From contig NZ_JAMOKO010000001.1 of NCBI RefSeq assembly GCF_023656745.1, positions 124,001-188,000 on the forward strand: a stretch of DNA of 64,000 nt. The letters are read 5' to 3'. The translations under genes and the position numbers were made by a program. The DNA comes from Collinsella sp. BG-O-102 (lineage in GTDB: Bacteria > Actinomycetota > Coriobacteriia > Coriobacteriales > Coriobacteriaceae). The notes beneath the pieces are model-generated. The model saw nothing but the letters and a program-made list of their open reading frames with translations. It searched no databases and was not told the origin of the DNA. Of the stretch, positions 4,633 to 36,221 are shown one piece after another. Numbering within the stretch: the first letter of the stretch is position 1; every line of letters starts with the position of its first letter.

Positions 4633-5379
4633 ATGCTAGCGGAAGATAGGCTCAACGCGATCGTGTCGATGGTGCAGCAGGCTGGCTCGGTTACTGTGCC
4701 AGAGCTTGCCGAGGCCCTGGGCGTGACGGCGTCTACCATTCGGCGCGACCTGCAGACGCTCGATCGAGCACACCGCATCGCCAAGGTCCACGGCGGAGCG
4801 ACGAGTCTTGAGCGCGCACACGTGACGCGCGACCTAACGCTCAATGAGCGCAGCGACCTCCATAACGACGACAAGGAGCGTATCTGCGCCCATGCGGCGG
4901 CGCTTGTGGAGCCCGAGAGCTTTGTATACATCGACTCGGGCTCGACGACGCTCAAACTCATCGAGCATCTTCCACACCTTGAAGATGTCACCTATGTGAC
5001 CGATTCTGTGATCCATGCTCAGCACCTCGCTTTGCGCGGCATGCGCACCGTGGTGTTGGGTGGCGAGCTCAAGCCCGAGACCGAGGCACTCGTTGGCCCC
5101 GATGCTTTGGCAACCCTAGACCGCTACAACTTCAATTGTGGCTTTTGGGGTTCTAACGGCATTGCCGCCGAGCAGGGCTTCACGGCGCCCGATATCGAGG
5201 AAGCGCAAGTAAAGCGTATCTCGATGCGCCATACGGCCAAACGCTTCGTAATCTCGGACGCCAGCAAATTTGGCATGGTGGCGCCCGTCAAGTTCGCGGA
5301 CTTCCGCGACGCAACGATTATTACCGCGGGCGAGGTCCCCGCCAAGTACCGGGCAATGGACAACGTCATCACGGTCTAA
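4633..5379 (+). CDS. DeoR/GlpR family transcriptional regulator
   Basis: A 248-residue cytoplasmic regulator. The N-terminal winged helix covers residues 1-60 (VTVPELAEALGVTASTIRRD); the C-terminal sugar-phosphate-sensing domain has the family motif YIDSGSTTLKLIEHL and GFTAPDIEEAQVKR. These proteins are usually repressors released by a phosphorylated sugar. It begins 3 bases after the oxidoreductase stop with its ribosome binding site GAGGAG inside that gene's end, so the pair is one operon and probably autoregulated through the repeats at 3244-3549. Confidence 0.93.
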   Translation: MLAEDRLNAIVSMVQQAGSVTVPELAEALGVTASTIRRDLQTLDRAHRIAKVHGGATSLERAHVTRDLTLNERSDLHNDDKERICAHAAALVEPESFVYIDSGSTTLKLIEHLPHLEDVTYVTDSVIHAQHLALRGMRTVVLGGELKPETEALVGPDALATLDRYNFNCGFWGSNGIAAEQGFTAPDIEEAQVKRISMRHTAKRFVISDASKFGMVAPVKFADFRDATIITAGEVPAKYRAMDNVITV

Positions 5380-5401
5380 CAGCAGGGGACGGGCTAAGGC
5401 C

Positions 5402-5440
5402 AAAACCACCACAAAGGGGCCTGTCCCCATTGTGGTGGTT
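5402..5440. repeat. AACCACCACAA hairpin element, copy 1
   Basis: Inverted repeat with arms AACCACCACAA and TTGTGGTGGTT around a GGGGCCTGTCCCC core. A second copy lies at 5773-5811, bracketing the terminator and a triple hairpin array. It lies in the convergent gap after the DeoR gene. Confidence 0.8.
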
Positions 5441-5471
5441 AGCAACGGAAACCGAGTAGTTTTCTCAATAG

Positions 5472-5511
5472 AAAAGCGGCAACGTCCATCACGGACGTTG
5501 CCGCTTTCGTT
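5472..5511. terminator. Bidirectional hairpin terminator
   Basis: Perfect stem AAAGCGGCAACGTCC/GGACGTTGCCGCTTT with a five-base loop. It is flanked by T-rich sequence on the plus strand and by TTTTC on the minus strand. It lies between the convergent DeoR and pseudouridine synthase genes, so it can end transcription from both sides. Confidence 0.75.
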
Positions 5512-5524
5512 GTCTACCGGTTTT

Positions 5525-5742
5525 GTCTAAGTCTGTAACAACTGGACCGTTAAAAGTGGGCTAGGTGTTACAGATCGAGATACTTCCGAGCCGCGCCGTC
5601 CCTTTGTCTCAATCTGTAACATCTGGGACCGATTTTGCCGAGTTATTGTTACAGATTGAGATTTTTCCTTGAGAGGGATTCGAATGTCTCGATCTATAAC
5701 AAATAGACCGGAAAATGGGTTCTAACTGTTACAGATCGAGAC
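5525..5742. repeat. Three tandem hairpin units with 80-bp period
   Basis: Units at 5525-5581, 5606-5661 and 5686-5742, each about 57 bp. Each starts GTCT(C/A)(A/G)(A/G)TCTGTAAC-like and ends TGTTACAGAT(T/C)GAGA, so each is an imperfect palindrome that could fold. The inner parts differ while the arms are kept. The starts are 81 and 80 bp apart. No protein frame is supported here. Confidence 0.8.
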
Positions 5743-5772
5743 GTTTTGGGACTGTGGCTGGGCCATTGCGGC

Positions 5773-8981: not shown

Positions 8982-9086
8982 ATCCTGCCTTTCAAAATGC
9001 TCAGATACTCAAAAGTATAGTGGTGCAGTTGCGGCGGACGAGCCCTGTGGCCCAAGCAGGATAAAGTCTTCAGCAGCCCTTGCAGT

Positions 9087-9159
9087 AAAAATGATCCGTT
9101 TCCCTCCGTCCCCATCGGATCAGGCGATCCATAGGGGACAGAGGGAAACGGATCATTTT
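9087..9159. repeat. 26-bp inverted repeat element
   Basis: Arms at 9087-9112 and 9134-9159, matching at 25 of 26 positions around a 21-base centre. The inner ends are CGTCCCC and GGGGACA. It lies in the divergent gap between the U32 gene and ridA, which otherwise (8982-9359) shows no gene. Confidence 0.8.
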
Positions 9160-9359
9160 GAGCTTCACCGTCCGGTCGTGCCGTTCAGCGGCCGACAGGC
9201 ACCGTTGGGCGATAAAATATTCTCGCAACGTGATAATAATCTTGCATCGCGCGGAAACCTTGAGTACTATCCCAAATCAAGCGCGGTGTTCAGACCGAAT
9301 TGTGCCTCCCGGTGCGAACGCCGCGCTCACGCTCTCTATCTGATCGTAAGGAGAAAAAC

Positions 9360-9737
9360 ATGAGCAAGACCGTCGTGTCTTCCGATAACGCACCTGCAGC
9401 CATCGGCCCGTATTCCCCCGGTATCCAGACCGGCAACATGGTGTTCCTGTCCGGCCAGCTGGGCATCGACCCCGCAACTGGCAAGATGCCCGAGGGCGTC
9501 GAGGCCCAGGCTAAGCAGTCCCTTGCTAACGTTGAGGCCCTGCTGACCGCTGCCGGCGCCACCTTTGCCGATGTCGTCAAGACCACGGTCTACCTGGCCG
9601 ACATTGCCGACTTCGCTGCCGTGAACGAGATTTATGCCTCCAAGTTCGAGGCCCCGTTCCCCGCGCGCAGCGCTTTCCAGGTTGCCGCTCTTCCGGCTGG
9701 CGGCCTGGTCGAGATCGAGGTCGTCGCCGCTCTCTAA
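9360..9737 (+). CDS. ridA: RidA family enamine/imine deaminase
   Basis: A 125-residue protein starting at the ATG at 9360, preceded by AAGGAGAAAAAC; a longer frame starting upstream has no conserved residues. RidA hydrolyses reactive 2-aminoacrylate and related enamines made by PLP enzymes. Family features are APAAIGPYSP, the FLSGQLGIDP strand, and PARSAFQVAALP with the catalytic arginine near residue 105. A hairpin terminator follows. It sits next to the purine locus, whose YgeX lyase makes aminoacrylate, so a functional link is possible but inferred. Confidence 0.95.
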   Translation: MSKTVVSSDNAPAAIGPYSPGIQTGNMVFLSGQLGIDPATGKMPEGVEAQAKQSLANVEALLTAAGATFADVVKTTVYLADIADFAAVNEIYASKFEAPFPARSAFQVAALPAGGLVEIEVVAAL

Positions 9738-9766
9738 GGCGTTGGCAACAGCTAAACATGACATGC

Positions 9767-9803
9767 AAAAGGACCCTGCAGTGCGAGCTGCAGGGTCCTT
9801 TGT
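9767..9803. terminator. Hairpin terminator after ridA
   Basis: Stem AAAGGACCCTGCA/TGCAGGGTCCTTT with a seven-base loop, T-rich at both ends, 30 bases after the ridA stop. Confidence 0.85.
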
Positions 9804-9833
9804 CAAGCGATGGGTCACTTGTGGAGCCACCAA

Positions 9834-9960
9834 GGGCAGTCTTTTTGGGACGGGGCTATTTTAGCTACCCCAATATGCAGGATTGCTTTTACTTGCGGCT
9901 CATCGAAATCGCGGGCAGAGGGAGGGTAGCTAAAATAGCCCCGTCCCAAAAAGACTGCCC
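9834..9960. repeat. 37-bp perfect inverted repeat
   Basis: Arms at 9834-9870 and 9924-9960 are exact reverse complements over 37 bp with a 53-bp centre. Each arm carries GGGACGGGGC and TTTTAGCTACCC. It fills the convergent gap between ridA and the downstream minus-strand regulator. No transposase is present nearby. Confidence 0.85.
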
Positions 9961-9977
9961 GCGCTCCATTTTGCTCG

Positions 9978-10634
9978 CTAGCCCTCCTTGCGGACTTTTT
10001 GCAGGTAGCGGTAGACGCTGGGCTCCGAGATGCCCAGCGCGGTGGCGGCGCAGGCCACGGCGCCCTTGAGCATGAACACCCCGTTGCCGTTGAGGTGGCG
10101 AATGACGTCCACGCGGTCGCTCTGGCCAAGTGACGCTACATCCAGCCCGCGCGCGCTCAGCAGCTCGGCAATACTGCGGTCGATGAGCTCCTGCGTAGAC
10201 TCCGAAAGACTTTCGACCTCGATAGACGCGGGCTCTGCCTGCCTTGGCACAGCGTCGAAGCAGGCCATGAGCTGCTGCGCCATGGCGTTGATGGAGCGTA
10301 CCGTGGAAAGATCGGTGTTGACGCAGAGCATGCCGACGATCTCGTTGTCCTCGCGGATAAAGTACGTCGCGGACTCCAACGTCTTGCCACCGGCGCCGCG
10401 CCCTTCATAGCCCGTAATAAACGGCAGATCGCGATACTTGGGGTCGTGCATAATCTTGAGCGCCAGATCGGTGGCGGGACCGCCGACCTTGCGGCCGCTC
10501 ACGATACCGTTGCGGATATCGACGATGGCGTGGTCGGGATCCGAGAAATCGTGCAGGACGATCTCGCTGTTCTTACCGAGTACCTGCTCCAGGAAATCGA
10601 CCATCGGCAAAAAGCGACGTACGGTCTCGTTCAC
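9978..10634 (-). CDS. YheO-like PAS/HTH transcriptional regulator (first copy)
   Basis: The GTG at 10634 is chosen because AAGGAG precedes it by 6 bases, giving 218 residues; a longer in-frame start adds 17 poorly conserved residues. The N-terminal PAS-like (YheO) domain has NSEIVLHDFSDPDHAIVDI and GRGAGGKTLESATYFIRED; the C-terminal helix-turn-helix has AATALGISEPSVYRYLQKV. Relatives such as DauR control catabolic genes. It is divergent from the purine permease across 352 bases and is a paralogue of the regulator at 38977-39630, so control of the first purine arm is likely (inferred). Confidence 0.88.
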   Translation of the reverse strand: MNETVRRFLPMVDFLEQVLGKNSEIVLHDFSDPDHAIVDIRNGIVSGRKVGGPATDLALKIMHDPKYRDLPFITGYEGRGAGGKTLESATYFIREDNEIVGMLCVNTDLSTVRSINAMAQQLMACFDAVPRQAEPASIEVESLSESTQELIDRSIAELLSARGLDVASLGQSDRVDVIRHLNGNGVFMLKGAVACAATALGISEPSVYRYLQKVRKEG

Positions 10635-21786: not shown

Positions 21787-22081
21787 GAGCTACCGCCTCC
21801 TTTTGGGTAGCAAAAACGTATCAGCCGGAACTTGCCGCTCAGCTGACCAAAAGCTGACCAAAATCTAACCATGCAGGTAGATGGCCTATTTTCGGCGACA
21901 TTTTTATATCCGAATCGGTGGGCGGTAATCGGCGACCGTGAACGGCGACGAGTTATGAAGACTGGGTAAGTTTCGGGACGTGTACTTTTCAGAAAAAGAG
22001 CATTCTATCTGCTGTTTTGTGTTTCTGGATCGCATATTTGAAGGTATGTGATAAGGGCGGCGGACTGTCGCCTTGTATCTG
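21787..22081. promoter_or_regulatory. Upstream region of the AbiEi-like gene
   Basis: An AT-richer gap. Two adjacent copies of AGCTGACCAAA lie at 21841-21851 and 21852-21862 with a weaker third (ATCTAACC) after them, 55 bases upstream of the minus-strand start. They look like operator iterons for that gene. Nothing else was recognised. Confidence 0.4.
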
Positions 22082-22252
22082 CGGAAGCTGTGACCCGGAA
22101 TGAGCGCTCGGAATGGGATGCATTTTCCGGTAGAAGCTTCAGCGGAAAGTGCATCCCAGAATTCAGGCTCAGAACGGGACACGCTTTCCGGATGGCATGC
22201 TTAGCGGAAACTACGGCCCAGTTTTTGGTTCCAGAACGGGATACATTTTCCG
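22082..22252. repeat. 48-bp hairpin repeat array 2 (three units)
   Basis: Same family as array 1. Units at 22082-22129, 22143-22190 and 22205-22252, all 48 bp with starts 61 and 62 bp apart. Arms run CGGAAA...CCC and GGGA...TTTTCCG or CTTTCCG. Confidence 0.9.
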
Positions 22253-22307
22253 GAACGGTCCACGTGCGGCGGTGTATCGCCCTTTTTCGTGCGCCGCTTG
22301 TCGAATT

Positions 22308-22376: not shown

Positions 22377-23756
22377 ATGTTTATCGGAAGAACGGCGGAA
22401 ATGTCCGAGCTCAATCGACTGTATGGCACGGGCTCCTTTGAGATGCCTGTGATTTACGGCCGCCGTCGCGTGGGCAAAACGCGTCTCATCACAGAATTCA
22501 TCCAAGGCAAGAAGGCTATTTACTTTCAAGCTCGTCGTACCAATGCGGAGGCAAACCTGCATGGCTTTAGCCAGGCGATACTTGCAGGCTCGGTTGGTGC
22601 TGCAGGCGTGTCGTTTCGTAGTTTTGACGAAGCGTTCGATGCATTGGCCACCATGGCTCGCGCGGAACGTTTGATTGTCGTGATTGACGAGTATCCCTAT
22701 CTCGCCCAATCGAATCCCGAGATCAGCTCGTTGCTGCAAGACAAGATTGATCACCTGTACAAAGAGACCAGGCTCATGCTGATCCTATGCGGCTCGTCTC
22801 TTTCGTTTATGGAGGAACAGGTGTTGGGCTACGAGAGCCCACTATACGGTAGACGTACGGCCCAGTTTAAGATCATGCCGCTCGATTTTACGACGACCCT
22901 CGGGTTGTGGCAGAGCATGGGTCGCGAAGACGCTGCAGTTTGCTATGGCATGACAGGTGGCATTCCTGCATATATCGAGAAAGTCGATCCTGCCGCATCG
23001 CTCAAGGACAACATCAAACGTCTTTTTCTTACTCCTACGGGCTATCTCTTTGAGGAGCCGAGTAACCTGCTATTGCAAGAGTGCCGCAATCCCGAGCAAT
23101 ATGATGCGATCGTGCAAGCAATTGCTCAGGGGCGCTCGAAGATCTCGGAGATTGCGAGCTCTACGGGAATCCCTGCGAGCAACGTAAAGAGCTATGTGGA
23201 TAAGCTGGCGTCGCTTGGGATTGTCGAGCGCGAGCTGCCCCTAAACGAGACGAGCAATAAGCGAGCCGTGTATCTGCTGAGCGACCAGATGTTTAGGTTC
23301 TGGTACAAGTTTGTTCCGCAGAACATCGGGCTGATTCAAAACGATATGGCCGAGATGGCGTATAAGCGCATTGAGCCGCACATATCGGATTACATGGGTA
23401 TGGTCTTTGAGCTTATATGCAGACAATACGTGTACGAACTCGCACGCGCGGGCCAGCTCGATGTGGTTCCGGCGAGCGTCGGGCGCTGGTGGGGGACGGA
23501 TAATCGCACGCATACGCAGGAAGAAATCGACTTGATTGTTGACGATGGCGAGGGCACTGCGCTGTTTGCGGAGTGCAAATGGCGCAATGAACCGGCGGGC
23601 GAAGACGTGCTGCAAAAGCTCGTTCGTCGAAGCGAGCTCTTTAGACGGCAACGAAAAAGCTATGCGCTTTTCTCAAAACGCGGCTTTACGCAGGGATGTC
23701 GGGATGCCGCGGAGAGCAGGGGAGACGTTAAGTTGATCTCCTTTGCCGAGATGTGA
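22377..23756 (+). CDS. AAA ATPase with C-terminal DUF234 nuclease-like domain
   Basis: A 459-residue protein of the archaeal-type ATPase family. Walker A is GRRRVGKT (residues 24-31); Walker B is LIVVIDEYPYLA near 100; the sensor-like ILCGSSLSFME is near 140. A winged helix follows (about 245-300, SKISEIASSTGIPASNVKSY). The C-terminal DUF234 part has EEIDLIVDD then FAECKWRNEP, a PD-(D/E)XK pattern (D, ExK). Function in the family is unproven; defence or toxin-like roles have been suggested. It has its own palindromic upstream region and lies between repeat arrays 2 and 3. Confidence 0.85.
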   Translation: MFIGRTAEMSELNRLYGTGSFEMPVIYGRRRVGKTRLITEFIQGKKAIYFQARRTNAEANLHGFSQAILAGSVGAAGVSFRSFDEAFDALATMARAERLIVVIDEYPYLAQSNPEISSLLQDKIDHLYKETRLMLILCGSSLSFMEEQVLGYESPLYGRRTAQFKIMPLDFTTTLGLWQSMGREDAAVCYGMTGGIPAYIEKVDPAASLKDNIKRLFLTPTGYLFEEPSNLLLQECRNPEQYDAIVQAIAQGRSKISEIASSTGIPASNVKSYVDKLASLGIVERELPLNETSNKRAVYLLSDQMFRFWYKFVPQNIGLIQNDMAEMAYKRIEPHISDYMGMVFELICRQYVYELARAGQLDVVPASVGRWWGTDNRTHTQEEIDLIVDDGEGTALFAECKWRNEPAGEDVLQKLVRRSELFRRQRKSYALFSKRGFTQGCRDAAESRGDVKLISFAEM

Positions 23757-23862
23757 GGACGGGGTAGCTCTGCTCGAGGGCAAGAGCCTGTCCTCGAATT
23801 GCTGGAATAGGGCCCCTTCTTTTGTCGTGTTGGCTGTCGGCGGAATGCCGGTGGAAAGCCAG

Positions 23863-24072
23863 CGGAAAGCGTGTCCCAGATTTCGGCCCCAGGGTGGGAT
23901 GCCGTTTCCGAATCGGCCCTCAAACGGAAATTGCATCCCGGAACGAGCTCTCAAACCGGGATGAACTTTCCCAGCGGGGCTGCAGGCGGAAACTGTGTCC
24001 CGGATTCGACGCTCAGAATGGGATTCGTTTTCCGGCAGGGGCTTCAAATGGAACATGCGTCCCGGGGCCCCA
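23863..24072. repeat. 48-bp hairpin repeat array 3 (three units plus remnant)
   Basis: Units at 23863-23910, 23925-23972 and 23987-24034, each 48 bp with 62-bp spacing; a broken fourth starts at 24049. Same arms as arrays 1 and 2. The array lies between the DUF234 ATPase and the SIMPL gene. Confidence 0.88.
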
Positions 24073-24796: not shown

Positions 24797-25260
24797 TGGA
24801 CGAGCCGGGCGAGCGTCGAGACTTCATGACTGAAAAACCATTTGTTGAACCTGGCGCCCGTGGGTAAAATAAGGCAGACGGCAGCCCAAGTAGTGAAGAG
24901 CTGGGCAGCGCCGTTGCTTGGTCAAGAGGTCAGTGCCTTAATGGCAGCGACTTGTTATGCTTCGAATGCTGCTTGAGTGCCTCGGAAAGTTCGATAAGCG
25001 CCGTGAAGAGCAAGACCAAAGCAACCAAGAGCTCTGTGAGCTCTGATGGGCCCGGGATGACCTCTGATTCAAGTCACCGGTCCTCAATTTTTATCACATG
25101 CATTTGAATAGAGCGGGCGGGATCCCTTGGGTCCGTTTGTGTGGCGCGTGCCTGGTGCACGGCATTGCACCCCGCTTTTGTGTCCGCACGGGCGCCTATC
25201 CTTACGGCAATGTAGCCGCTTATGTAACCAAGCGGCAGGCAACGGAGAAAGGCCCTAACC
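24797..25260. other. Non-coding gap before exonuclease
   Basis: A 464-base gap. It holds a 27-bp element at 25054-25080 repeated at 26006-26033 and the upstream element at 25177-25217. A minus-strand frame at about 24940-25070 encodes a hydrophobic stretch (LLVALVLLFTALIEL) but lacks an ATG, GTG or TTG at a sensible place, so no gene is called. Confidence 0.5.
25177..25217 (+). promoter_or_regulatory. Upstream element shared with 24092-24132, copy 2
   Basis: Begins TTTGTGTCCGCACGG and ends GTAGCC like copy 1, with scattered changes between. It lies 43 bases before the exonuclease GTG start. Confidence 0.5.
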
Positions 25261-25995
25261 GTGTCAGCTGAAAAGACGCCGTGCATCTCGGCTATCGATA
25301 CGACGAACTTTGCGCGCCAGATCGTGCTGGACTTTGAGTTTGCGCCGGTGCCAAAGCAGCGCCAGCGCCGTGGACTGCGCAATGAGGTTATCGAGGTCGG
25401 CGCCGTCAAGCTCGATTACCACGGCAACGTTATGGGCGAGTTCTCGCAGTTTGTGCAGACGGAATTTACCGAAGGCGTTGCGTTTCCCGTCCGCGAGCTC
25501 ACAGGGATATCGGCCGTGGATACCGCGATGGCCGATCCGCTCTATGTGGTGATCAAAAGGCTCAGCGATTGGATCGGTCGCTACTCCGCCCAGGTGGTCT
25601 GTTGGAGCGGGGCGGACCGTCGACAGCTTTTGACCGAGTGCCAGGCAAAGCGCATCGACCTTTCCGCATTTCCTACGGACTGGGCCGACCTGCAGGCGTT
25701 TTACACCTCGATCATGGACGTGGGCAGCCACGGGTGTGTCTCTTTGAGTGACGCGGCGACGTGGTTTGGCATCGGGCTCGACGAGTCGACGGGTCACGCC
25801 CACAGCGCCCTAGCCGATGCGCGCGTAACCGCCAAGCTGCTCAGGCAGATGATGGACGGGGACTATCACGTGAGTCCGCGTGCCCAGGAGATCCGCCAGC
25901 GGTGGGGGATGGGCGAGCGACCCCAGACGCGCCTTTCCAGCAAGTGCCCCGAGCTGGGCGACCTGCTGCTGAAGCTGAAAGCGGAGGGGAGGTAG
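25261..25995 (+). CDS. DEDDh-type 3'-5' exonuclease family protein
   Basis: A 244-residue DnaQ/RNase T-like protein. ExoI has IVLDFEFAP with Asp24 and Glu26; ExoIII has HAHSALADARVTAKLL near residue 180 with the general-base His and last Asp. The second Asp probably lies in the VVCWSGADRRQL region. It cleaves nucleotides from the 3' end of DNA or RNA; which is not known. Start GTG follows GGAGAAAGG. It lies between two copies of a 27-bp repeat, next to the restriction cluster. Confidence 0.82.
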   Translation: MSAEKTPCISAIDTTNFARQIVLDFEFAPVPKQRQRRGLRNEVIEVGAVKLDYHGNVMGEFSQFVQTEFTEGVAFPVRELTGISAVDTAMADPLYVVIKRLSDWIGRYSAQVVCWSGADRRQLLTECQAKRIDLSAFPTDWADLQAFYTSIMDVGSHGCVSLSDAATWFGIGLDESTGHAHSALADARVTAKLLRQMMDGDYHVSPRAQEIRQRWGMGERPQTRLSSKCPELGDLLLKLKAEGR

Positions 25996-26005
25996 GCAGG
26001 ACTCC

Positions 26006-26033
26006 GGGAATGACCTCTGATGCAAGTCATCGG
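26006..26033. repeat. 27-bp repeat, second copy (first at 25054-25080)
   Basis: Both copies share GACCTCTGAT and CAAGTCA and are imperfect palindromes (GATGAC...GTCATC-like). They lie on either side of the exonuclease gene and its upstream element, about 950 bp apart. Confidence 0.55.
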
Positions 26034-26186
26034 AGCTCATGTTGCTTTCTTTGGAGCTTTCTCACGGAGCTGACTTTACTTCGTCTCATTTCGTATAAAG
26101 CAGCTGCTAGATTGCATGGTGATGATAAAATTAATAAGTTCAACACCAACAGTTGCCGCCTTGCGCAATGAGGAGTTCCGAGACGT

Positions 26187-28517
26187 ATGAACGAGTCTGA
26201 TACACGGCTTAAGCTCATCGATCCTGCGATTATGAAGTCGTGGGATCGCAACACCCAAGTCTTCACTGAGTATTTCTTTACCAGTGGCGAGATTGTCGTG
26301 CGCGGAAGCATGGTCTCCCGCAAAGACAAGAAGAAGGCGGACTACCTTCTGATGTACGCTCCCGGTATCCCTATCGCAATCGTCGAGGCCAAGGATACGG
26401 AGCACACCGTTGATGCCGGTCTCCAACAGGGGATGGGATATGCTCAACTGCTCGATATTCCGTTTGCATACAGCTCAAACGGAAAGGGTTTTGTTGAGCA
26501 CGATTTTCTTACCGGGAAAGAGCGCGCTCTCGCCATGAACGAGTTCCCCGCTCCGGCGGAGCTCTGGACACGATACTCAAAAGCTAAGGGACTTGAGCAT
26601 CCGTATAGCCAGGAGATTGTGACCGCTCCGTATTACCAGGAGCACGGCGGCAATCATCCTCGCTACTATCAGTGCATCGCCATCAATCGTACGCTTGAAG
26701 CTATTGCGCGAGGTAAGAATCGCATCTTGCTCGTTATGGCAACGGGAACGGGAAAGACTTTTACGGCTTTTCAAATCGTTCATCGCTTGCGACAGACTAC
26801 CGAGGTTCGTAAGGTTCTCTATCTGGCGGACCGCAATATTCTCGTCGATCAGACCATAGACGGCGATTTCAAGCCTCTCAAGAGGGTTACAACCAAAGTC
26901 GTAGGCCGAAAGCTCGATTCTGCTTACGAGGTCTATTTCTCGCTCTACCAACAGCTTGTTGGTGAAAACGGTGAAGAAATATTCCGCGAGTTCGACTCGG
27001 AATTTTTCGATTTGATTATCGTTGACGAGTGCCATCGCGGAAGCGCCGCGGCGGACTCCGCATGGCGTAAGGTGCTCGAGTATTTCAATTGTGCAATTCA
27101 AATCGGAATGACGGCCACGCCAAAGGAGACTGAAGAGGTTTCAAACATTACCTACTTCGGCGAACCTGTCTATACCTACTCCCTTAAACAAGGCATCGAG
27201 GATGGCTTTCTTGCCCCGTATAAAGTTATTCGCCCTAAGCTGAACGTCGACATTTACGGATACCGTACTGAGGAAGGCACCGTAGATGATCGCGGCGAAG
27301 CTCTGCCCAAACGTGTTTTCGAGAAGCAAGACTTCGACAGCGAGATTGTCATCAAAGAGCGCTACGAGGAAGTTGCCAAGCGGATAACTCAATTTCTAAA
27401 GGAGACGGATCGTTACTCCAAGACCATAGTCTTTTGCGTTGACATCGAGCATGCCGAAAATATGCGACGTGCCCTTGTAAACGAGAACGCCGATATCGTA
27501 AGAGATCACCCCACCTACATCATGAAGATTACGGGTGACGACAGGGAAGGTAAGGCTCAGTTAGATAACTTCATCGACCCCGACGAGAAATACCCGACCA
27601 TCGTTACGACTTCGAAGCTTCTCACCACTGGCGTTAATTGCAAGACGTGTAAGGTAGTCGTGCTCGACAACAAGTTCGGTGAGCACGGAATGACGGAGTT
27701 CAAGCAGATTATCGGCCGCGGGACCCGTATCTGTGAGGACTACGACAAACTTTATTTCACCATCCTCGATTTTCGTGACGCATCGCGTTTGTTTGCAGAT
27801 CCCGAGTTTGATGGCGAACCTGTTGTTGTGTTTGAGCCTAATCCGGGTGACCCCATTGCGGATCCGGGTCCCGGCGGCAATGGCGGCAGTCCCGTTCCGC
27901 CTCCGTCTCCAATCGTAGACCCACCCGTATTACCGCCGGACGATCCGTCTTCTCATGTGAAATATCACGTTCATGGGGCCGACGTCTATGTAGTGTCGGA
28001 GATGGTGCAGTATTACTCATCCGATGGTCTTCTTGTAACTGAGAGCCTTAAGGACTATACGCGGAAGAACATTCTTGGCGAATACGACACTCTTGACCAC
28101 TTCCTAGCGGCGTGGAACTCTGAACATAAGAAGCAAGCAATTATCGATGAGCTGCGCGCACGTGGCGTATTCCTGGATGAGCTGCGGCTCGAGACTGGGC
28201 AGGAGCAAATGAGCGACTTTGACCTCATTTGCCATATTGCTTACGACCAGAGACCTCTTACGCGCAGCGAGAGAGCCAATAGCGTCAAGAAAAAGGGCGT
28301 GCTTTATGAGTATGCCGGCGTCGCGCGCGAGGTCCTTGAAGCACTTCTCGACAAATATGCGACGTCGAACCTCGTAGACTTGGACGATACCCATGTCCTC
28401 GATCTCGAGGAGTTCCGTCGGTTTGGCAGCCCAATGAAGATCGTTGCCGCATTCGGCGGCAAACAACAGTACATTCAAGCAGCGCAGATGCTCGAGGACG
28501 AGCTCTACATCGCATAG
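26187..28517 (+). CDS. hsdR: Type I restriction enzyme, R subunit
   Basis: A 776-residue motor and nuclease subunit that translocates and cuts unmodified DNA. The nuclease core is DYLLMYAPGIPIAIVEAKDT (residues 51-70, with D and ExK). Walker A is MATGTGKTFTA near 184; the DEAD-like box is VDECHRG near 280; motif III is GMTATPKE. A Pro/Gly-rich linker (about 550-585) precedes the EcoEI-type C-terminal domain. The length and order fit the EcoEI subfamily. hsdM follows after 19 bases. Confidence 0.95.
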   Translation: MNESDTRLKLIDPAIMKSWDRNTQVFTEYFFTSGEIVVRGSMVSRKDKKKADYLLMYAPGIPIAIVEAKDTEHTVDAGLQQGMGYAQLLDIPFAYSSNGKGFVEHDFLTGKERALAMNEFPAPAELWTRYSKAKGLEHPYSQEIVTAPYYQEHGGNHPRYYQCIAINRTLEAIARGKNRILLVMATGTGKTFTAFQIVHRLRQTTEVRKVLYLADRNILVDQTIDGDFKPLKRVTTKVVGRKLDSAYEVYFSLYQQLVGENGEEIFREFDSEFFDLIIVDECHRGSAAADSAWRKVLEYFNCAIQIGMTATPKETEEVSNITYFGEPVYTYSLKQGIEDGFLAPYKVIRPKLNVDIYGYRTEEGTVDDRGEALPKRVFEKQDFDSEIVIKERYEEVAKRITQFLKETDRYSKTIVFCVDIEHAENMRRALVNENADIVRDHPTYIMKITGDDREGKAQLDNFIDPDEKYPTIVTTSKLLTTGVNCKTCKVVVLDNKFGEHGMTEFKQIIGRGTRICEDYDKLYFTILDFRDASRLFADPEFDGEPVVVFEPNPGDPIADPGPGGNGGSPVPPPSPIVDPPVLPPDDPSSHVKYHVHGADVYVVSEMVQYYSSDGLLVTESLKDYTRKNILGEYDTLDHFLAAWNSEHKKQAIIDELRARGVFLDELRLETGQEQMSDFDLICHIAYDQRPLTRSERANSVKKKGVLYEYAGVAREVLEALLDKYATSNLVDLDDTHVLDLEEFRRFGSPMKIVAAFGGKQQYIQAAQMLEDELYIA

Positions 28518-28536: not shown

Positions 28537-30015
28537 ATGGCACTGGGATCTCTTGTAAAGACCCTGCAGAACATCATGCGCAAAGATGCTGGCATCAATG
28601 GCGATGCGCAGCGCATCGAGCAGATGACCTGGCTTTTCTTCCTCAAGATTTACGATGCCAAGGAGCAGGAGTGGGAGTTTCACGATGACTCCTATCAGTC
28701 CATCATCCCCGAGCGCCTGCGCTGGCATAGCTGGGCGCACGATGCGAAGGACGGTAAGGCGCTTACTGGTGATGAGCTTCTCGACTTTGTAAACAATGAT
28801 CTATTCAAGACCCTTGAGAGTCTTGAGCTTGCACCTGATGCGCCTTTGCGACACGTCGTCGTCAAGGCTGCTTTTACTGACGCCAACAACTACATGAAGG
28901 ATGGGATTCAGCTTCGTCAAGTCATCAACGAGATTGACGGGTCGGTTGACTTTACCGAGTACAAAGAGCGCCACGCCTTCGGTGAAATTTACGAGACCAT
29001 CCTGAAAGACTTGCAGTCCGCAGGTAATGCCGGCGAGTTTTACACGCCCCGAGCGGTGACTGACTTTATGGCCCAGGCGCTTGCGCCCAAGCTCGGCGAG
29101 ACTGTGGCTGACTTCGCGTGTGGCACGGGCGGCTTTTTGACGAGCGCCCTCAAGATTCTCGACTCCCAGGTTCAGACTCCGGCCGATCGTGAGCTCTATG
29201 CAAGATCGGTCTACGGTATCGAGAAGAAGCAGCTCCCTTACCTGCTGTGCGTGACCAACATGCTGTTGCACGATATCGATAATCCTGAAGTCTTTCACGA
29301 TAACTCTCTCGAGAAGGACGTTCGCGAGTGGAAGCACAAGCCTGACGGCCAGTTTGACGTTGTACTTATGAACCCACCGTATGGCGGGTCCGAGAGTGCA
29401 TCGGTGCAAAACAACTTTCCTGTTGCACTCCGTAGCTCCGAGACTGCAGATCTATTCCTTGGACTCATTCTTTATCGTCTTAAGCGAGGCGGCCGCGCTG
29501 CTGTTATCATTCCGGATGGTTTTCTCTTTGGCCAGGATGGTGCAAAGACGGAGATCAAGCGTCGCCTGCTTGAGGACATGAACCTGCATACTGTCTTGCG
29601 CCTTCCACAGAGTGTCTTCGCTCCGTACACGCCCATCACTACTAACGTTCTGTTCTTCGATAATACGGGGGCCTCTGAGGGCGTTTGGTTCTATCGCATG
29701 GACATGCCCGAGGGGTATAAACACTTCTCTAAGACCAAGCCCATTAGGATCGAACATTTTGCGCCTGTAAAGGAGTGGTGGGAGAATCGTCGGGATATCG
29801 AGGAAGACGGCAATCCCAAGGCCAAGTTCTATACGGTTGACGAGCTGCGAGACGGCGGCTTTAACTTTGACGTATGCGGCTATCCTCACGAGGAAGAGGA
29901 GATCTTACCGCCGGACGAACTGATCAGGAGCTACAAAGAAGAGCGTGCTAGGCTCGACGCCGAGATTGACCAGAAGTTGGCTCGAATTTGCGAGATTCTT
30001 GGGATTGAGGCGTAG
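28537..30015 (+). CDS. hsdM: Type I restriction-modification system, M subunit
   Basis: A 492-residue N6-adenine methyltransferase. Residues about 1-120 are the HsdM N-terminal bundle; GEFYTPRAVTDFMAQ near 167 opens the catalytic domain; DFACGTGGFLTSAL near 194 is the SAM site and LMNPPYGGSES near 277 is the NPPY catalytic motif. It methylates host DNA with HsdS and joins HsdR for restriction. The stop TAG touches the ATG of hsdS with no gap. Confidence 0.97.
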   Translation: MALGSLVKTLQNIMRKDAGINGDAQRIEQMTWLFFLKIYDAKEQEWEFHDDSYQSIIPERLRWHSWAHDAKDGKALTGDELLDFVNNDLFKTLESLELAPDAPLRHVVVKAAFTDANNYMKDGIQLRQVINEIDGSVDFTEYKERHAFGEIYETILKDLQSAGNAGEFYTPRAVTDFMAQALAPKLGETVADFACGTGGFLTSALKILDSQVQTPADRELYARSVYGIEKKQLPYLLCVTNMLLHDIDNPEVFHDNSLEKDVREWKHKPDGQFDVVLMNPPYGGSESASVQNNFPVALRSSETADLFLGLILYRLKRGGRAAVIIPDGFLFGQDGAKTEIKRRLLEDMNLHTVLRLPQSVFAPYTPITTNVLFFDNTGASEGVWFYRMDMPEGYKHFSKTKPIRIEHFAPVKEWWENRRDIEEDGNPKAKFYTVDELRDGGFNFDVCGYPHEEEEILPPDELIRSYKEERARLDAEIDQKLARICEILGIEA

Positions 30016-31617
30016 ATGAAGGCAAAAGACCTGAAGAACTCAATCCTTCAAATGGCAATTGAAGGCAAACTTGTGCCGCAGGATCCGAACGACGAGCCTG
30101 CCAGCGTCCTTCTTAAACGTATTCGTGAGGAAAAGCATAGGCTAATTGCTGAAGGTAAGGCCAAATTCCCGAAGGGCGGGGAGAGCATTATTTATATCGG
30201 TTCCGATGGCTCCCCCTATGAGAAGAGGGTGGACGCCAAGGGTCGCGTGCTAAGCGATAGGTGTATCGCGGATGAGGTGCCGTTTGAGGAGTTGCCCGAA
30301 GGATGGGCTTGGGCAAGACTAGAAAGCTTGTGCTCAGTAATTACCGACGGCGACCATCAAGCTCCACCCCAACAAGCAGATGGGATACCGTTTCTTGTCA
30401 TCTCCGACGTCTCGTCAGGCAAGATTGACTTTTCCAATACTCGACATGTTTCATCGAATTATTTCGATTCACTCGACGGCTCAAGAAAGCCTCGTTACAG
30501 TGATTTGCTGCTAACCGTAACGGGATCGTTCGGGATTGTGGTGCCAGTCAATACCGAAGAGCGTTTTTGCTTTCAACGTCACATTGCCTTGCTTCGCCCC
30601 TTGGGCTACAGACGGTTCATGATAAATGCCCTTGCGGCACCATCAACATACGCATATTTCAATGCCAAGGCTACCGGTACCGCTCAGAAAACAGTTTCGT
30701 TGGGATGCTTGAGGTCTACGCTTCTTGCTCTTCCGCCAGAAAATGAGGAGCCGAGAATTATAAATCAGCTCACTCAGCTCATGCCCCTGGTCGAGGAGTA
30801 CGGCGAGCTCGAGGACGCCCGCGAGGCGCTCGACGCCGCGCTGCCCGGCCGCCTGCGGAAGTCGGTGCTGCAGCTGGCGGTTCAGGGAGGGCTTGTGCCG
30901 CAGGACCCCGCAGACGAGCCCGCCGGCGTCCTGCTCGAGCGCATCCGCGGGCAGCGCCGGCAGCTCGTGGCCGAGGGGAAGATGAGGGCCCCGAAGGGCG
31001 GCGAGTCGATCATCTTCGCCGGTTCCGATGGCCGCCGCTATGAGAAGAGGGTGGACGCAAAGGGCCGCGAGTCCGAGCCCGTCTGCATCGAGGACGAGAT
31101 CCCGTTCGAGATACCCGAGGGCTGGGAGTGGCGTCGCTTAGGGTCTCTTGTCTTGAATCGCGGGCAGAAGAGGCCTGAGGCGCGTTTTGCCTATATCGAC
31201 ATCTCGTCGATTGACAATGTGAACCAAAAGCTTGGACAGGAAACTGTTATAAATGCAGCTGACGCGCCTTCACGAGCAAGAAAGCTAGTCGCAAAGAATG
31301 ATGTGCTCTATGCGACCGTTCGCCCTTATTTGCATAATGCCTGTATCGTAGATAAAGATTTTAATATTGAGCCCATCGCAAGTACTGGGTTTGCTGTCCT
31401 TTCATGTCTTGATGGATTCCTTCCTAGTTTTCTTCTCTACTTTTTGGTTTCTCCTAGCTTTGACTCTTATGCAAATGCCAATGAGAACGCAAAGGGGGTT
31501 GCCTATCCGGCAATCAATGACAACAGGCTGTATCGCGCTCTAATCCCTGTTCCCCCAGCCAGCGAGCAGAAACGAATTGTTTCTAGAATCACCGAAGTAT
31601 TTGCTCTTACCAATTAA
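30016..31617 (+). CDS. hsdS: Type I restriction-modification, S subunit (expressed copy)
   Basis: A 533-residue specificity subunit with two target recognition domains. Conserved region 1 is residues 1-100 (LKNSILQMAIEGKLVPQDP, GSDGSPYEKRVDAKGR); TRD1 is about 100-250; conserved region 2 is 255-375 (LRKSVLQLAVQGGLVPQDP, GSDGRRYEKRVDAKGR); TRD2 runs to the end. The codons of region 2 are exactly repeated, inverted, in the second hsdS at 32438. It is directly behind hsdM, so it is the expressed copy in this orientation. Its 3' end overlaps the recombinase end by 11 bases. Confidence 0.95.
   Translation: MKAKDLKNSILQMAIEGKLVPQDPNDEPASVLLKRIREEKHRLIAEGKAKFPKGGESIIYIGSDGSPYEKRVDAKGRVLSDRCIADEVPFEELPEGWAWARLESLCSVITDGDHQAPPQQADGIPFLVISDVSSGKIDFSNTRHVSSNYFDSLDGSRKPRYSDLLLTVTGSFGIVVPVNTEERFCFQRHIALLRPLGYRRFMINALAAPSTYAYFNAKATGTAQKTVSLGCLRSTLLALPPENEEPRIINQLTQLMPLVEEYGELEDAREALDAALPGRLRKSVLQLAVQGGLVPQDPADEPAGVLLERIRGQRRQLVAEGKMRAPKGGESIIFAGSDGRRYEKRVDAKGRESEPVCIEDEIPFEIPEGWEWRRLGSLVLNRGQKRPEARFAYIDISSIDNVNQKLGQETVINAADAPSRARKLVAKNDVLYATVRPYLHNACIVDKDFNIEPIASTGFAVLSCLDGFLPSFLLYFLVSPSFDSYANANENAKGVAYPAINDNRLYRALIPVPPASEQKRIVSRITEVFALTN
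30199..30312 (+). repeat. Inverted repeat IR1 (hsdS region 1), left copy
   Basis: About 114 bp, with a partner in inverted orientation at about 33764-33880. Similarity is high but not complete; a run from ATGGCTCCCC to GGTGGA of about 28 bp is identical. It could serve to exchange TRD1. Confidence 0.65.
30776..31131 (+). repeat. Inverted repeat IR2 (hsdS region 2), left copy
   Basis: 356 bp, apparently identical by eye to the reverse complement of 32936-33291. It covers the central conserved region of HsdS between TRD1 and TRD2. Recombination between the copies would invert the segment holding TRD2, the recombinase and the other TRD2. Confidence 0.92.
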
Positions 31618-32404
31618 CTGCTTCATCAACCGCGGCGCGCTGTTCATTGGCGGTGCGTCGCAGGTAGATTCGTGTCGTCTCAATGCTCTCGTGCCCCATC
31701 AAGTCGGCAAGCAGCGAAATGTCTGGGTTGCGGTCGATGAAGTTCTTTGCGAATAGGTGTCTAAACGAATGCGGATAGACCACGTTTGGATCAACGCCGT
31801 AACGAATGGCAGCACGTTTGAGCCCAAGGGCTATTCCGCGAGAGCTAATCGCGTTTTCTCCTTTGCCAGGAAACAACAATGCGCCATGGTCACGCTCCGG
31901 CATCCAGTCCTTCGTCTCCCGACAGAGTATTTCAGGTATCCAGACCCTGCGAAGCTTTTGGCCTTTGGAAACTATGTCCATATAGCCATCGAAGGCATGT
32001 TTAGCCCTAAACTGCCGCAACTCGCTCACACGGGCACCCGTACAGCCAAGATAACGAACAACGAAGTACCAGAACAAATTATTGTCGCCCTTCAAGCCGT
32101 CCTTTAGCTGTGCATACTGCTCATTGCTAATAATATTATCGAGGAAGGGCTTCTGTTGGATCTTTACTCCTTTTAGTCGTATTCCGTCAAATGCGATGTA
32201 ATCCAAATAGGCGTTAATGGCTCCGATGCGGCTGTTAGCGGTCTTGGGTGCAAACGACGAAACCAGCCATTCCTTGTGGGCAAGAAGTGACTGGTTCGTG
32301 AGGGATTGGATACGATTGATTAGCTGATCAATCGCAAATGCGTACGAGTTAACTGTATTCTCCGCATAACCCTTCTCCCGTAAGTGCTGAGCAAACTTTT
32401 TCAT
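31607..32404 (-). CDS. Tyrosine recombinase of the hsdS inversion system
   Basis: A 265-residue XerC/D-like recombinase. The N-terminal SAM-like core-binding domain is at 1-90 (YAENTVNSYAFAIDQLI). Catalytic residues are visible: Arg in CTGARVSELR (near 128), HSFRH (near 217), GHES (near 238) and Tyr in TTRIYLRRT (near 247). It lies between two inverted hsdS genes, the layout of phase-variable type I systems in which such enzymes flip specificity domains. The start ATG has AAGGATG upstream. Confidence 0.93.
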   Translation of the reverse strand: MKKFAQHLREKGYAENTVNSYAFAIDQLINRIQSLTNQSLLAHKEWLVSSFAPKTANSRIGAINAYLDYIAFDGIRLKGVKIQQKPFLDNIISNEQYAQLKDGLKGDNNLFWYFVVRYLGCTGARVSELRQFRAKHAFDGYMDIVSKGQKLRRVWIPEILCRETKDWMPERDHGALLFPGKGENAISSRGIALGLKRAAIRYGVDPNVVYPHSFRHLFAKNFIDRNPDISLLADLMGHESIETTRIYLRRTANEQRAAVDEAVNW

Positions 32405-32935
32405 GGCATCATCCTTTCGACAATGCCATGAAAACAGCTAATCGTTAGTGTTTCGCAACATTTCGAGCCACTCGAAGATGCGACGTTGTTCGGGCAACGG
32501 CGGAAGTGGAACAAGAAGGTTGAGCACGTAAGATTCCTTGACGTTATTTATGTTAGTACCGGTCGAAAGCACCCTAATGCGGCTTCGATATAAGTCGGAA
32601 AAGAAAATGAGCCAGCACCAGCCTTGACAGGCCAAGGGTCTCGCAATCCGCAAGAATGCTCCGATTTGCGTATTGGGCATCTCTCTCGAAACGAATCCGG
32701 GCTTGCCGATCACCTTTTTACTGCCCGTTGACGCAACATACAGTACGTCTCCGACCTGAACTTGAGCAGAGGGTACGACGTGTCCGTAATCGAGGAATAC
32801 ATCGTCTGTGCCGATCGTCAGTGACCCATTCTCGAGGATGTTTCCTCCCCTCAGGATACGAATCCCCTGACTCGTCACTTCGTGCTTTTTGTAGGAAGTA
32901 CCTGGCGCAAGATCAATTAACGTGGAAAATCTCGC

Positions 32936-33291
32936 CCACTCCCAGCCCTCGGGTATCTCGAACGGGATCTCGTCCTCGATGCAGACGGGCTCGGACTCGC
33001 GGCCCTTTGCGTCCACCCTCTTCTCATAGCGGCGGCCATCGGAACCGGCGAAGATGATCGACTCGCCGCCCTTCGGGGCCCTCATCTTCCCCTCGGCCAC
33101 GAGCTGCCGGCGCTGCCCGCGGATGCGCTCGAGCAGGACGCCGGCGGGCTCGTCTGCGGGGTCCTGCGGCACAAGCCCTCCCTGAACCGCCAGCTGCAGC
33201 ACCGACTTCCGCAGGCGGCCGGGCAGCGCGGCGTCGAGCGCCTCGCGGGCGTCCTCGAGCTCGCCGTACTCCTCGACCAGGGGCATGAGCT
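32936..33291 (-). repeat. Inverted repeat IR2 (hsdS region 2), right copy
   Basis: Partner of 30776-31131, equal length (356 bp) and inverted. Confidence 0.92.
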
Positions 33292-33763
33292 CGTTTATGC
33301 GTTTGACGACGCGGCGTTGCTCGGCGAGGGGCGGGAGGGGGAGAATGAAGTCCGGTATATCACCGAGATTAATTTTGAAAGTATGGGTTCCGCCGCCGAC
33401 TTTAACTTTTTCGATCCATGCGAAACCAACGGGAGAATCAATGCATGAACAAATCCACTCCGCAATAGCTATGGAAACTGGTCGGAGTAATCCCAGGCTG
33501 ACAAAGATGCTGAATTCATAATCGACGTCAACGATAATCGGCTTGCCCAGAGTTCCAATGCGGCAAAGCAAGATGTCTCCGCGGCCAGGTTTCACTCGCC
33601 TACAAAGATCTTCATGAGTTTCTCGACTGATGTACCGCACTTTAGTCAAGTCAAACGAGCCACCAGAAACGTTTTGCACCGAAAGAAACAAGACGCCAGT
33701 CTCAGTATATTGAGGTGTCTTATGCGTACCGTCCGAAACAAGTGAGAGCAGATTGCCCAATCT

Positions 33764-33880
33764 CGTCCAGCACCACCCCTCGGGCAGTTCCTCAAACGGT
33801 ATTTCGTTCGCGATACACTTATCGCTTGTCACGCGGCCCTTGGCATCCACCCTCTTCTCATAGGGGGAGCCATGGGAACT
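33764..33880 (-). repeat. Inverted repeat IR1 (hsdS region 1), right copy
   Basis: Partner of 30199-30312. Its outer end at about 33880 coincides with the sudden loss of hsdS similarity in the silent cassette, which marks it as a recombination boundary. Confidence 0.65.
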
Positions 33881-34097
33881 TGATGGGCATTCAATTGCAT
33901 ACAATCGCGTCCTAGTGAATCGCGTCCCAACGCCATGCTTTAATGCATGCAAAAACGCACCTGCAACAAGCGTTGTAAAATCTAGTGATATGAGCATCCC
34001 GGTTGCTTCAGCACCTCGATGCTCTCGTCTTTAGCGCCCTCCGCTCAGTGGAGGACTGACTGCAAACGGCGTAAACAAGACAAGGGGGATTGCGCAA

Positions 34098-36221
34098 ATG
34101 AAAGCAACTGAGGCGAATCTGCTCGACCTTATGGGCGTGGCGAAGATGCAGTTCGTCATTCCCGTGTACCAGCGAGTTTACTCGTGGAGTGTAAAAGAGT
34201 GCGAGGTGCTTTGGGATGACGTCATGCGAGCGGGTCGTGATGGCGTATCGCACTTCGTGGGGTCGATGCTTTATATCCCCGAGTCCGAGAGCTCTGCCAC
34301 GAGTATTTCGCGCGTGCTTCTGATTGACGGACAGCAGCGCATGACGACGTTTTCGTTGATGATTACAGCCTTGGCTGAATATCTGGAGGATAATCCCGAC
34401 AAGGCCGGCTTCCTTGGCGATCTCAAGATCTCAGCGCTGCGGAAGAACTATCTCTTTAACGATGATGACTACAACGGCCTGGCGCGCTACAAATTAGTGC
34501 TCTCGCAGGACGATAAAGAGACTCTGTTTTCCATCGTGTCTGGGTTTCCCATGCCAGATGAAAAATCGGATCGCATTGTCGAGAACCATGCGTTCTTCCG
34601 CGAAAAGATGCGCGGAAAATCATTCGATCCGGCAAGGCTTTGGGCGGGGCTAAACCGCGTGCAGGTCATCGATACTAAGCTCACCGCTGGCGTCGATAAT
34701 GCCCAGCTCATATTTGAGTCCATGAACTCCAAGGGCAAGCCCCTCATGCCCATCGATCTCATACGCAACTATGTTCTTATGTCGCTTCCTAACGACGAAC
34801 AGACCAAGCTCTACGAGGGCTACTGGCATCCCATTGAGCGTCTGTTTGGAAAAGGGGGCGAGGGCGAGTTTAACGCCTTCATTTGGTACTGGCTGTGGCT
34901 CAAGGCTCCCAATAGGCAGCCAAAGGAGAATGAGGCTTATTACGAGTTCAAACGGTATTTTACCGATGACTACGACGGAGACACCGAGAGTCTGCTCAAG
35001 GAGTTGCGCGAGTATGCGCAAAGGTATGCCAGCCTGTTCCGAGACAAAGAAAAGGACGCTGGCCTACGTCGGGTGTTCAGCAGAATCGTAAGCCTTGATG
35101 TGAGACAGATCAGGCCTCTTTTGATGCTGCTCTACTCGGTTTACGAGAGAAATAGGCTAGACCGCAACGCGTTCCTTCGCATCTGCGAGACCATCGAGTC
35201 GTTTCTGTTTAGACGCGCGGTTTGCGGCAGGCTTACCACGGGCTTAAACAACTTTTTTGCAGGCATGTATCGCAACCTGGAGCTTCAAGCCGATATAGAG
35301 GAGTACGTTACGGCGATGCTCCTTATCCACAGCAGCGGTATGACCGCGTACTTCCCGACAGACGAGCATTTTGTCGAGGAGCTTAAGACGCGTGACTGTT
35401 ACAACCGCTTCTCTAAAAAGCGCTATTACCTGGAGCGTATGGAGAACTGGCACCACCCGAAGGAGCCCATCTCGGCTGACGATTACCAGATCGAGCACGT
35501 CATGCCCCAGACGATCGATGGTGAGCACGGCTGGAAGGAATCGCTTGGTGAGAACTGGGAAGACATCCACGACAGGCTGTGCAACAACTTGGGAAATCTT
35601 ACGCTGACGGGCTACAACCAGGAGTACTCAAACCGGTCGTTCTCGGACAAGCTCAATCTTCCGAACGTGGGACTTAAATGCAGCCCGCTCTACCTAAACA
35701 AGTCGATCGCCTCGCATGAAAAATGGGGCGAGGAGGAGATTAGGCAGCGCGCGGACGATCTGGCGAAAGAGGCGTGTGAGATATGGAAATATCCCGACCT
35801 TCCGGCAGATGTCGTCGACAAGTATCGCCCCTCTCGTGGGAAGTCTGACGAGGTGCCTATTTGGACCTTGCAAGAGAACCATCCAACCTTTGCCGAGGGC
35901 GGGCTTAATCAAAAATTGTTCGAGGAGATACGCGAGTCTATCCTCAACGCCAATCCTTCGTGGGAATCCTATATGGCCAAGTACTACGTAGGATTCAGGT
36001 CGGGCAAACGGAAGTTGCATGCCGTGCTGGAAGGCAGGACTAGCAACGGCGGCTGGATTGCCGTTGGCTTGGCAAAGAGTGTGGACGAGCTGATTGACCC
36101 GGAGGCCATGTGTCAGGACAAGCGCGCACAGGGTGGATTTGGGCCGGGTATGCCGACCTATGTTGCACTCCGTAGCGCTGACGATATTCCGGCGGTGCTC
36201 GATCTTATAAAGCAGTGCTAG
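34098..36221 (+). CDS. DUF262/DUF1524 protein, GmrSD-like
   Basis: A 707-residue protein. The DUF262 part has IPVYQRVYSW (residues 18-27) and DGQQRMTTFSLM (near 78), which in GmrS/SspE relatives form an NTPase. The DUF1524 HNH-like nuclease part has YQIEHVMPQT near 466 and LGNLTLTGYNQEYSNRSF near 500. A C-terminal DUF5655-like domain (about 590-705) ends the protein. GmrSD enzymes are type IV restriction systems that cut modified phage DNA; position beside the type I system supports defence. Confidence 0.87.
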   Translation: MKATEANLLDLMGVAKMQFVIPVYQRVYSWSVKECEVLWDDVMRAGRDGVSHFVGSMLYIPESESSATSISRVLLIDGQQRMTTFSLMITALAEYLEDNPDKAGFLGDLKISALRKNYLFNDDDYNGLARYKLVLSQDDKETLFSIVSGFPMPDEKSDRIVENHAFFREKMRGKSFDPARLWAGLNRVQVIDTKLTAGVDNAQLIFESMNSKGKPLMPIDLIRNYVLMSLPNDEQTKLYEGYWHPIERLFGKGGEGEFNAFIWYWLWLKAPNRQPKENEAYYEFKRYFTDDYDGDTESLLKELREYAQRYASLFRDKEKDAGLRRVFSRIVSLDVRQIRPLLMLLYSVYERNRLDRNAFLRICETIESFLFRRAVCGRLTTGLNNFFAGMYRNLELQADIEEYVTAMLLIHSSGMTAYFPTDEHFVEELKTRDCYNRFSKKRYYLERMENWHHPKEPISADDYQIEHVMPQTIDGEHGWKESLGENWEDIHDRLCNNLGNLTLTGYNQEYSNRSFSDKLNLPNVGLKCSPLYLNKSIASHEKWGEEEIRQRADDLAKEACEIWKYPDLPADVVDKYRPSRGKSDEVPIWTLQENHPTFAEGGLNQKLFEEIRESILNANPSWESYMAKYYVGFRSGKRKLHAVLEGRTSNGGWIAVGLAKSVDELIDPEAMCQDKRAQGGFGPGMPTYVALRSADDIPAVLDLIKQC

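Follow-up and report, generated by a model that had tools for sequence, protein, structure and literature searches.

Can the specificity gene of a type I restriction-modification locus in Collinsella sp. BG-O-102 be inverted, into how many forms, and what would keep its segments in order? The locus lies in the window analysed here, a 64,000-nt stretch of contig NZ_JAMOKO010000001.1 (positions 124,001–188,000; genome size 2.27 Mb), to whose first base all coordinates below refer. It holds an expressed hsdS gene and, beyond a tyrosine recombinase gene, a second hsdS in inverse orientation. Judging from sequence, we consider it highly probable that hsdS is invertible through four 25-bp sites served by the resident recombinase and that four HsdS proteins result, and somewhat more likely than not that the hexamer at the center of each site keeps inversions within one class of site.

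The locus is a type I restriction-modification locus, EcoAI-type by its HsdR, in which hsdR, hsdM, and hsdS form one operon-like array on the forward strand. hsdR (26187–28517; 776 aa) encodes a restriction subunit of the EcoAI/FtnUII family with ResIII and EcoEI_R_C domains, and hsdM (28537–30015; 492 aa) an N6-adenine methyltransferase subunit with N6_Mtase and HsdM_N domains above the Pfam cut-offs; both are open and full length, which the initial annotation had missed. HsdR passed the cut-off of the EcoAI/FtnUII equivalog NF046051 (1087.8 bits, cut-off 550). HsdM scored 79.6 bits with the EcoAI-type subfamily model TIGR00497, under its cut-off of 242.75, and matched strong type I methyltransferase models in PADLOC. 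The expressed HsdS (30016–31617; 533 aa) matched Methylase_S and type I specificity models and has two target recognition domains (TRDs), TRD1 at about 30295–30771 and TRD2 at about 31114–31617. The recombinase gene (31607–32404) and the silent copy, hsdS', lie on the reverse strand, the former within the putative invertible segment. The hsdS' frame is open from 32438 to 33997, with TRD2' at about 32438–32953 and TRD1' at about 33284–33784, but its homology to hsdS reaches only to ~33878, so that the first ~60 residues of HsdS have no counterpart. The expressed hsdS, tyrosine recombinase, and inverted, 5'-truncated hsdS described in the initial annotation thus agree with the frames, the domains, and the limit of homology. 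A promoter and terminator scan gave nothing above chance level, and an Rfam search gave 0 matches.

The two hsdS copies share, in their central conserved regions, a 356-bp inverted repeat, detected by repeat search, whose arms (30776–31131, forward; 32936–33291, reverse) flank the recombinase gene 1804 nt apart. The arms are 100% complementary, at the coordinates where the initial annotation had reported a seemingly identical repeat, and an exact inverted repeat of this length within 64 kb is far beyond chance. That inventory stood for the long pair but overlooked a second one: a search for exact inverted matches of at least 16 nt also returned 28 exact bp at the 5' border of TRD1 (30206–30233 and 33846–33873). 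Likewise overlooked was a 25-bp site common to the outer and inner pairs, TTCCGATGG-N6-CTATGAGAAG, which occurs four times in the window versus 0.05 expected (≤3 mismatches allowed). Each site comprises a 9-bp left half-site, a 6-bp central region, and the 10-bp right half-site CTATGAGAAG. In the expressed gene the outer site is at 30201–30225 (forward; hexamer CTCCCC at 30210–30215) and the inner site at 31023–31047 (forward; hexamer CCGCCG at 31032–31037). In the silent copy the inner site is at 33020–33044 (reverse; CCGCCG at 33030–33035) and the outer site at 33854–33878 (reverse; CTCCCC at 33864–33869), its left half-site being TTCCCATGG, with one substitution; the homology of hsdS' to hsdS starts at this half-site. 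The hexamers are thus identical within a pair and different between the outer and inner classes.

Because there is a second, outer pair of sites, four specificities are predicted rather than two. Inverting the sequence in silico at the hexamers of both pairs preserved the hsdS reading frame and gave four open, full-length HsdS proteins of 533, 537, 541, and 537 aa. In the mechanism we propose, the PsrA/CreX-type recombinase would act on four Xer-like sites to switch the specificity gene: inner-by-inner recombination would exchange TRD2 with TRD2', outer-by-outer recombination would exchange both TRDs, and the two inversions combined would place four different HsdS proteins in the hsdRMS operon. 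The recombinase gene would flip along with each inversion. In silico, the assembled form and the double inversion have it opposed to the operon, and either single inversion makes it parallel and places it 33 bp behind hsdS. This strain is known from the assembled form alone, and inversion in it, like the change of methylation that each inversion would bring, is predicted from that form.

The recombinase (265 aa) is 51.1% identical, over 100% of its length, to the annotated psrA product of S. dysgalactiae (WP_000651186.1). It matches Phage_integrase, its profile matches the structures of XerA, XerC-like, and XerD proteins, and it keeps R125, K147, H212, R215, H238, and Y247, which do not vary within the family. 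That the enzyme is full length with its catalytic residues kept makes it very improbable that the segment is a frozen relic that has ceased to invert, with the type I system fixed and the second hsdS copy dead. The substitution in the silent outer site would fit such decay; the perfect identity of the 356-bp arms and the openness of all four predicted HsdS frames would not, nor would the occurrence of both segment orientations among relatives.

A motif scan of about 85,000 species genomes returned 30 stretches, most of which were hsdS loci of Coriobacteriia that hold the motif two to four times; the same layout was found in relatives of several families. A protein scan of the named genomes for the recombinase gave 0 matches, but a six-frame whole-genome search did find homologues. 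At the 14 loci with a recombinase beside hsd genes (the window included, the comparison being between species), the recombinase is opposed to hsdRM at 10 and parallel to it at 4, namely in Enorma burkinafasonensis (L045), in Adlercreutzia sp. ZJ176 (L130), and at the incomplete loci L141 and L132. For L143 the direction of hsdM was taken from the matching end of L064, another contig of the same genome. Both orientations support inversion over evolutionary time, as far as assembled sequences can tell. Together with the open hsdRMS genes, the PsrA-family recombinase, and the in-frame exchange in silico, they support the proposal of the initial annotation that an invertible hsdS flips its TRDs. 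The excess of opposed over parallel loci was considered as a sign of feedback and rejected, 10 versus 4 not being significant (two-sided binomial P about 0.18).

Some of these assemblies have features of their own. Six contigs (L050, L053, L060, L064, L066, and L076) end within or close beside a site or arm, as expected because assemblers meet a repeat or mixed orientations there. At L043 (genome G014), a ~2.4-kb insertion at about 7700–10060 interrupts the 3' end of the expressed hsdS, within the invertible segment; by eye, its two open frames resemble IstA/IstB.

The relatives also indicate which part of the inner repeat matters. Because their long arms have drifted to 76–94% identity while the site stays exact, the recombinase probably reads the 25-bp site within the 356-bp repeat and not the long repeat itself; 356-bp identity as the functional repeat was rejected, the site being all that relatives keep exact. 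The site codons TCC GAT .. TAT GAG AAG are invariant in 15 inner arms, which outside the site prefer GAC and TAC and in which the commonest codon elsewhere averages 75%. As these arms had been picked by motif, a degenerate-codon search for the peptide SDGxxYEK is the better check; among 199 genomes, the codons are GAT and TAT where the site lies in an hsdS locus, whereas the remaining matches have GAC and nearly always TAC. At synonymous positions, the site codons are therefore kept in spite of the codon preference around them.

The same observations make it unlikely that the inner inversion proceeds mainly by homologous or RecA-independent exchange across the 356-bp repeat, with the recombinase a minor contributor or confined to the outer pair. 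An exact 356-bp repeat would suit such exchange, and the pneumococcal 333-bp and 85-bp repeats still invert without CreX and without RecA (PMC6620402). Exchange of this kind, however, accounts neither for arms that drift around an exact site nor for codons fixed at the site only; moreover, the outer pair, at 28 bp, is short for homologous recombination, and PsrA catalyzes the IR2 and IR3 inversions in vitro (PMC7096588).

Sites of the Xer/dif type consist of two half-sites in inverse orientation with a central region of 6 bp between them. To the left of the outer silent copy, hsdS homology is absent in several loci, which leaves the left half-site there free of coding constraint. The left half-sites of seven such copies were compared with the right half-site in reverse complement rather than with other left arms; their mean is 6.3 of 9 matches at 6-nt spacing and 1.6–4.0 at every other offset tried. 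The dyad signal appears at exactly 6-nt spacing only, and the naive product of the single-locus probabilities is 10^-13. The site is therefore a dyad with a 6-nt center and has the Xer/dif-like form.

In the proposed mechanism this central hexamer would be the region of strand exchange and hence identical between partners, so that CTCCCC (outer) and CCGCCG (inner) would confine recombination to one class and prevent the two sites of one hsdS, which are direct repeats, from recombining with each other and deleting TRD1. Site pairs from many loci agree with this. In Coriobacteriia the hexamer is shared in 20 of 44 inverted site-pair comparisons versus 0 of 23 direct ones (P = 4 × 10^-5), and in other groups in 13 of 25 versus 1 of 13 (P = 0.012); the inverted fractions lie near one half because all-against-all comparisons take in inner-by-outer pairs. 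The sole direct pair that shares its hexamer comes from E. faecalis, at a locus where three inner sites are present. When the outer and inner sites of one gene are compared, mismatches affect 1.2% of positions in left half-sites, 0% in right half-sites, and 65% in hexamers; over the 12 bases beyond the site, the figure is 12.5%. At several loci, moreover, the two outer copies are identical only as far as the left border of the hexamer or its vicinity. We thus somewhat favor, for Coriobacteriia, Bacillota, and Bacteroidota alike, the reading that the hexamer governs partner choice as an address code, by which sites at TRD1 borders pair only with one another, and those at TRD2 borders likewise, under one recombinase.

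A lesser but serious possibility is that the difference between hexamer classes is a by-product, in which the encoded protein dictates the residues and inversion or conversion homogenizes each pair, the hexamer having no part in partner choice. The hexamer is indeed coding (S-P or S-H in outer sites; R-R, G-Y, or G-H in inner sites), and many pairs are identical well past it. Homogenization does not readily explain why, within one gene, the two classes agree in both half-sites, and often in at least 20 bases to the right, while the hexamer stands out as an island of 65% mismatch. Nor does it explain why, at L198, L199, L200, L181, L187, and L130, outer-pair identity ends where the hexamer begins on its left side or leaves only dyad-like left half-sites. 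The recurrence of the pattern in other phyla and the difference between CTCTT and GAAAC at the corresponding place in pneumococcus (PMC6620402) also speak for partner choice. So does the need of tyrosine recombinases in general for identical central regions.

Several of these observations nonetheless count against recombinase-driven, class-restricted inversion as we propose it. Coding hexamers mean that the class difference could reflect the protein; the silent outer site carries its one substitution; and the pneumococcal long-repeat inversion is partly independent of CreX (PMC6620402), so that the recombinase may not be the sole agent at the inner pair. In addition, TRDs cross between positions in evolution by some route. 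The TRD1' family (33284–33784 in the window) occurs at position 1 in L131 as well (5264–5764, 68%) and at position 2 in L047 (6673–7170, 75%), and strictly locked TRD positions are ruled out accordingly.

Should the address code hold, it would keep reading frame and domain order and avoid deletion, and swapping hexamers should change partner choice. Natural orthogonal sites for one recombinase could also be useful in DNA-shuffling tools.

The recombinase family extends beyond the loci described so far. Six close relatives of the enzyme (L133, L134, L142, L206, L207, and L208; 43–48% identity) have no hsdS match nearby, and beside that of L206 lies a nearly perfect dyad, TTCTCATAA-CACCTC-TTATGGGAA; the family may therefore serve other invertible genes besides hsdS. 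Bacillota-like relatives of G424 yielded only 3 further homologues, with no hsdS nearby. Homologues in Mycoplasmopsis (L201, L210) and on several viral contigs showed no such half-site pattern and were left out as support.

The surroundings of the locus in the window hold further repeats and genes. A GmrSD-type gene (DUF262/PADLOC Orf5; 34098–36221) adjoins the silent hsdS, and 8 relatives (L043, L045, L046, L049, L050, L130, L140, and L143) likewise have GmrSD-like matches in the vicinity of the type I locus; the pairing may be non-random. Just upstream of hsdR, a 36-nt direct repeat, 83% identical (25051–25086 and 26004–26039), brackets an exonuclease-domain gene (25261–25995). Farther out, two clusters (22079–22255 and 23860–24037) bracket an ATPase_2/DUF234 gene (22377–23756), each consisting of three degenerate, internally palindromic copies of CGGAAA..TCCC....GGGA..TTTCCG at ~62-nt spacing.

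By the features tested, the locus appears to belong to the PsrA/CreX-type inverting type I systems, of which the best counterpart for comparison is S. pneumoniae cod/SpnD39III (Spn556II) with PsrA (CreX). The two have in common the hsdR-hsdM-hsdS order, a silent inverted hsdS, an internal tyrosine recombinase whose orientation flips with the segment, repeats at TRD borders, and a short repeat made of a core, TTATGGGAA, after bases that vary by repeat class (PMC4948785, PMC6620402, PMC7096588). They differ in the number of hsdS genes (three in pneumococcus, two in Collinsella) and of alleles (at least six versus four predicted); the Collinsella HsdR is of the EcoAI family, its right half-site is CTATGAGAAG, and its inversion is a prediction. 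Pneumococcal creX is expressed 2.6-fold more when parallel (PMC6620402).

The 10 bp conserved in pneumococcus, ATTATGGGAA, follow CTCTT in two of the repeats (15 and 333 bp long) and GAAAC in the 85-bp one, and the bases before ATTATGGGAA have been discussed as affecting CreX use (PMC6620402). In vitro, PsrA inverts IR1, IR2, and IR3, with a requirement for the bases directly preceding IR1 (PMC7096588). CTCTT plus ATTATGGGAA makes 15 bp, the length of a hexamer plus a 9-bp half-site, and we infer that the pneumococcal bases preceding the core are the strand-exchange region. Defining the PsrA-family site from many loci as half-site, hexamer, half-site would explain both why the 15-bp repeat requires the sequence immediately upstream and why the repeats are unlike in the bases directly before the 10-bp core. 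What could be new is the hexamer rule, although pneumococcal repeat-mutation work (10.1128/JB.00581-18) may anticipate it. No report of hsdS inversion in Coriobacteria or Collinsella came up in a literature search; with the present locus, the PsrA/CreX-type specificity switch reaches a gut clade of Actinomycetota (Collinsella, Enorma, Adlercreutzia, and relatives).

Inverting hsdS systems are common, since 3.9% of hsdS genes have inverted repeats in a duplicated hsdS according to Atack et al. (PMC7394358). The four-way system of S. suis (SSU1271-SSU1274) and the inverting systems of that REBASE survey share with Collinsella the duplicated hsdS, the inverted repeats, and four HsdS proteins, which for Collinsella are predicted (PMC7394358); the hosts are different, and the likeness of the S. 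suis system is drawn from its layout. In SsuCC20p of Streptococcus suis, which is XerD-dependent, a locus-encoded tyrosine recombinase likewise shuffles TRDs, but at the repeats TAAATCATCATTTA / TAAATGATGATTTA, present in two identical sets, which are not the Collinsella site (PMC10790761). The R64 shufflon resembles the Collinsella system in its tyrosine recombinase (Rci), in the swapping of 3' gene segments by inversion, and in recombination sites (sfx) with a fixed core and right arm and a more variable left arm (PMC11852207). It differs in the 7-bp core and 12-bp arms of sfx and in the extra C-terminal domain of Rci (PMC11852207), for which the Collinsella recombinase, ending 18 residues past Tyr247, has no counterpart. 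Unlike the shufflon, a Collinsella hsdS gene holds two classes of core, and its left half-site is conserved in Coriobacteriia.

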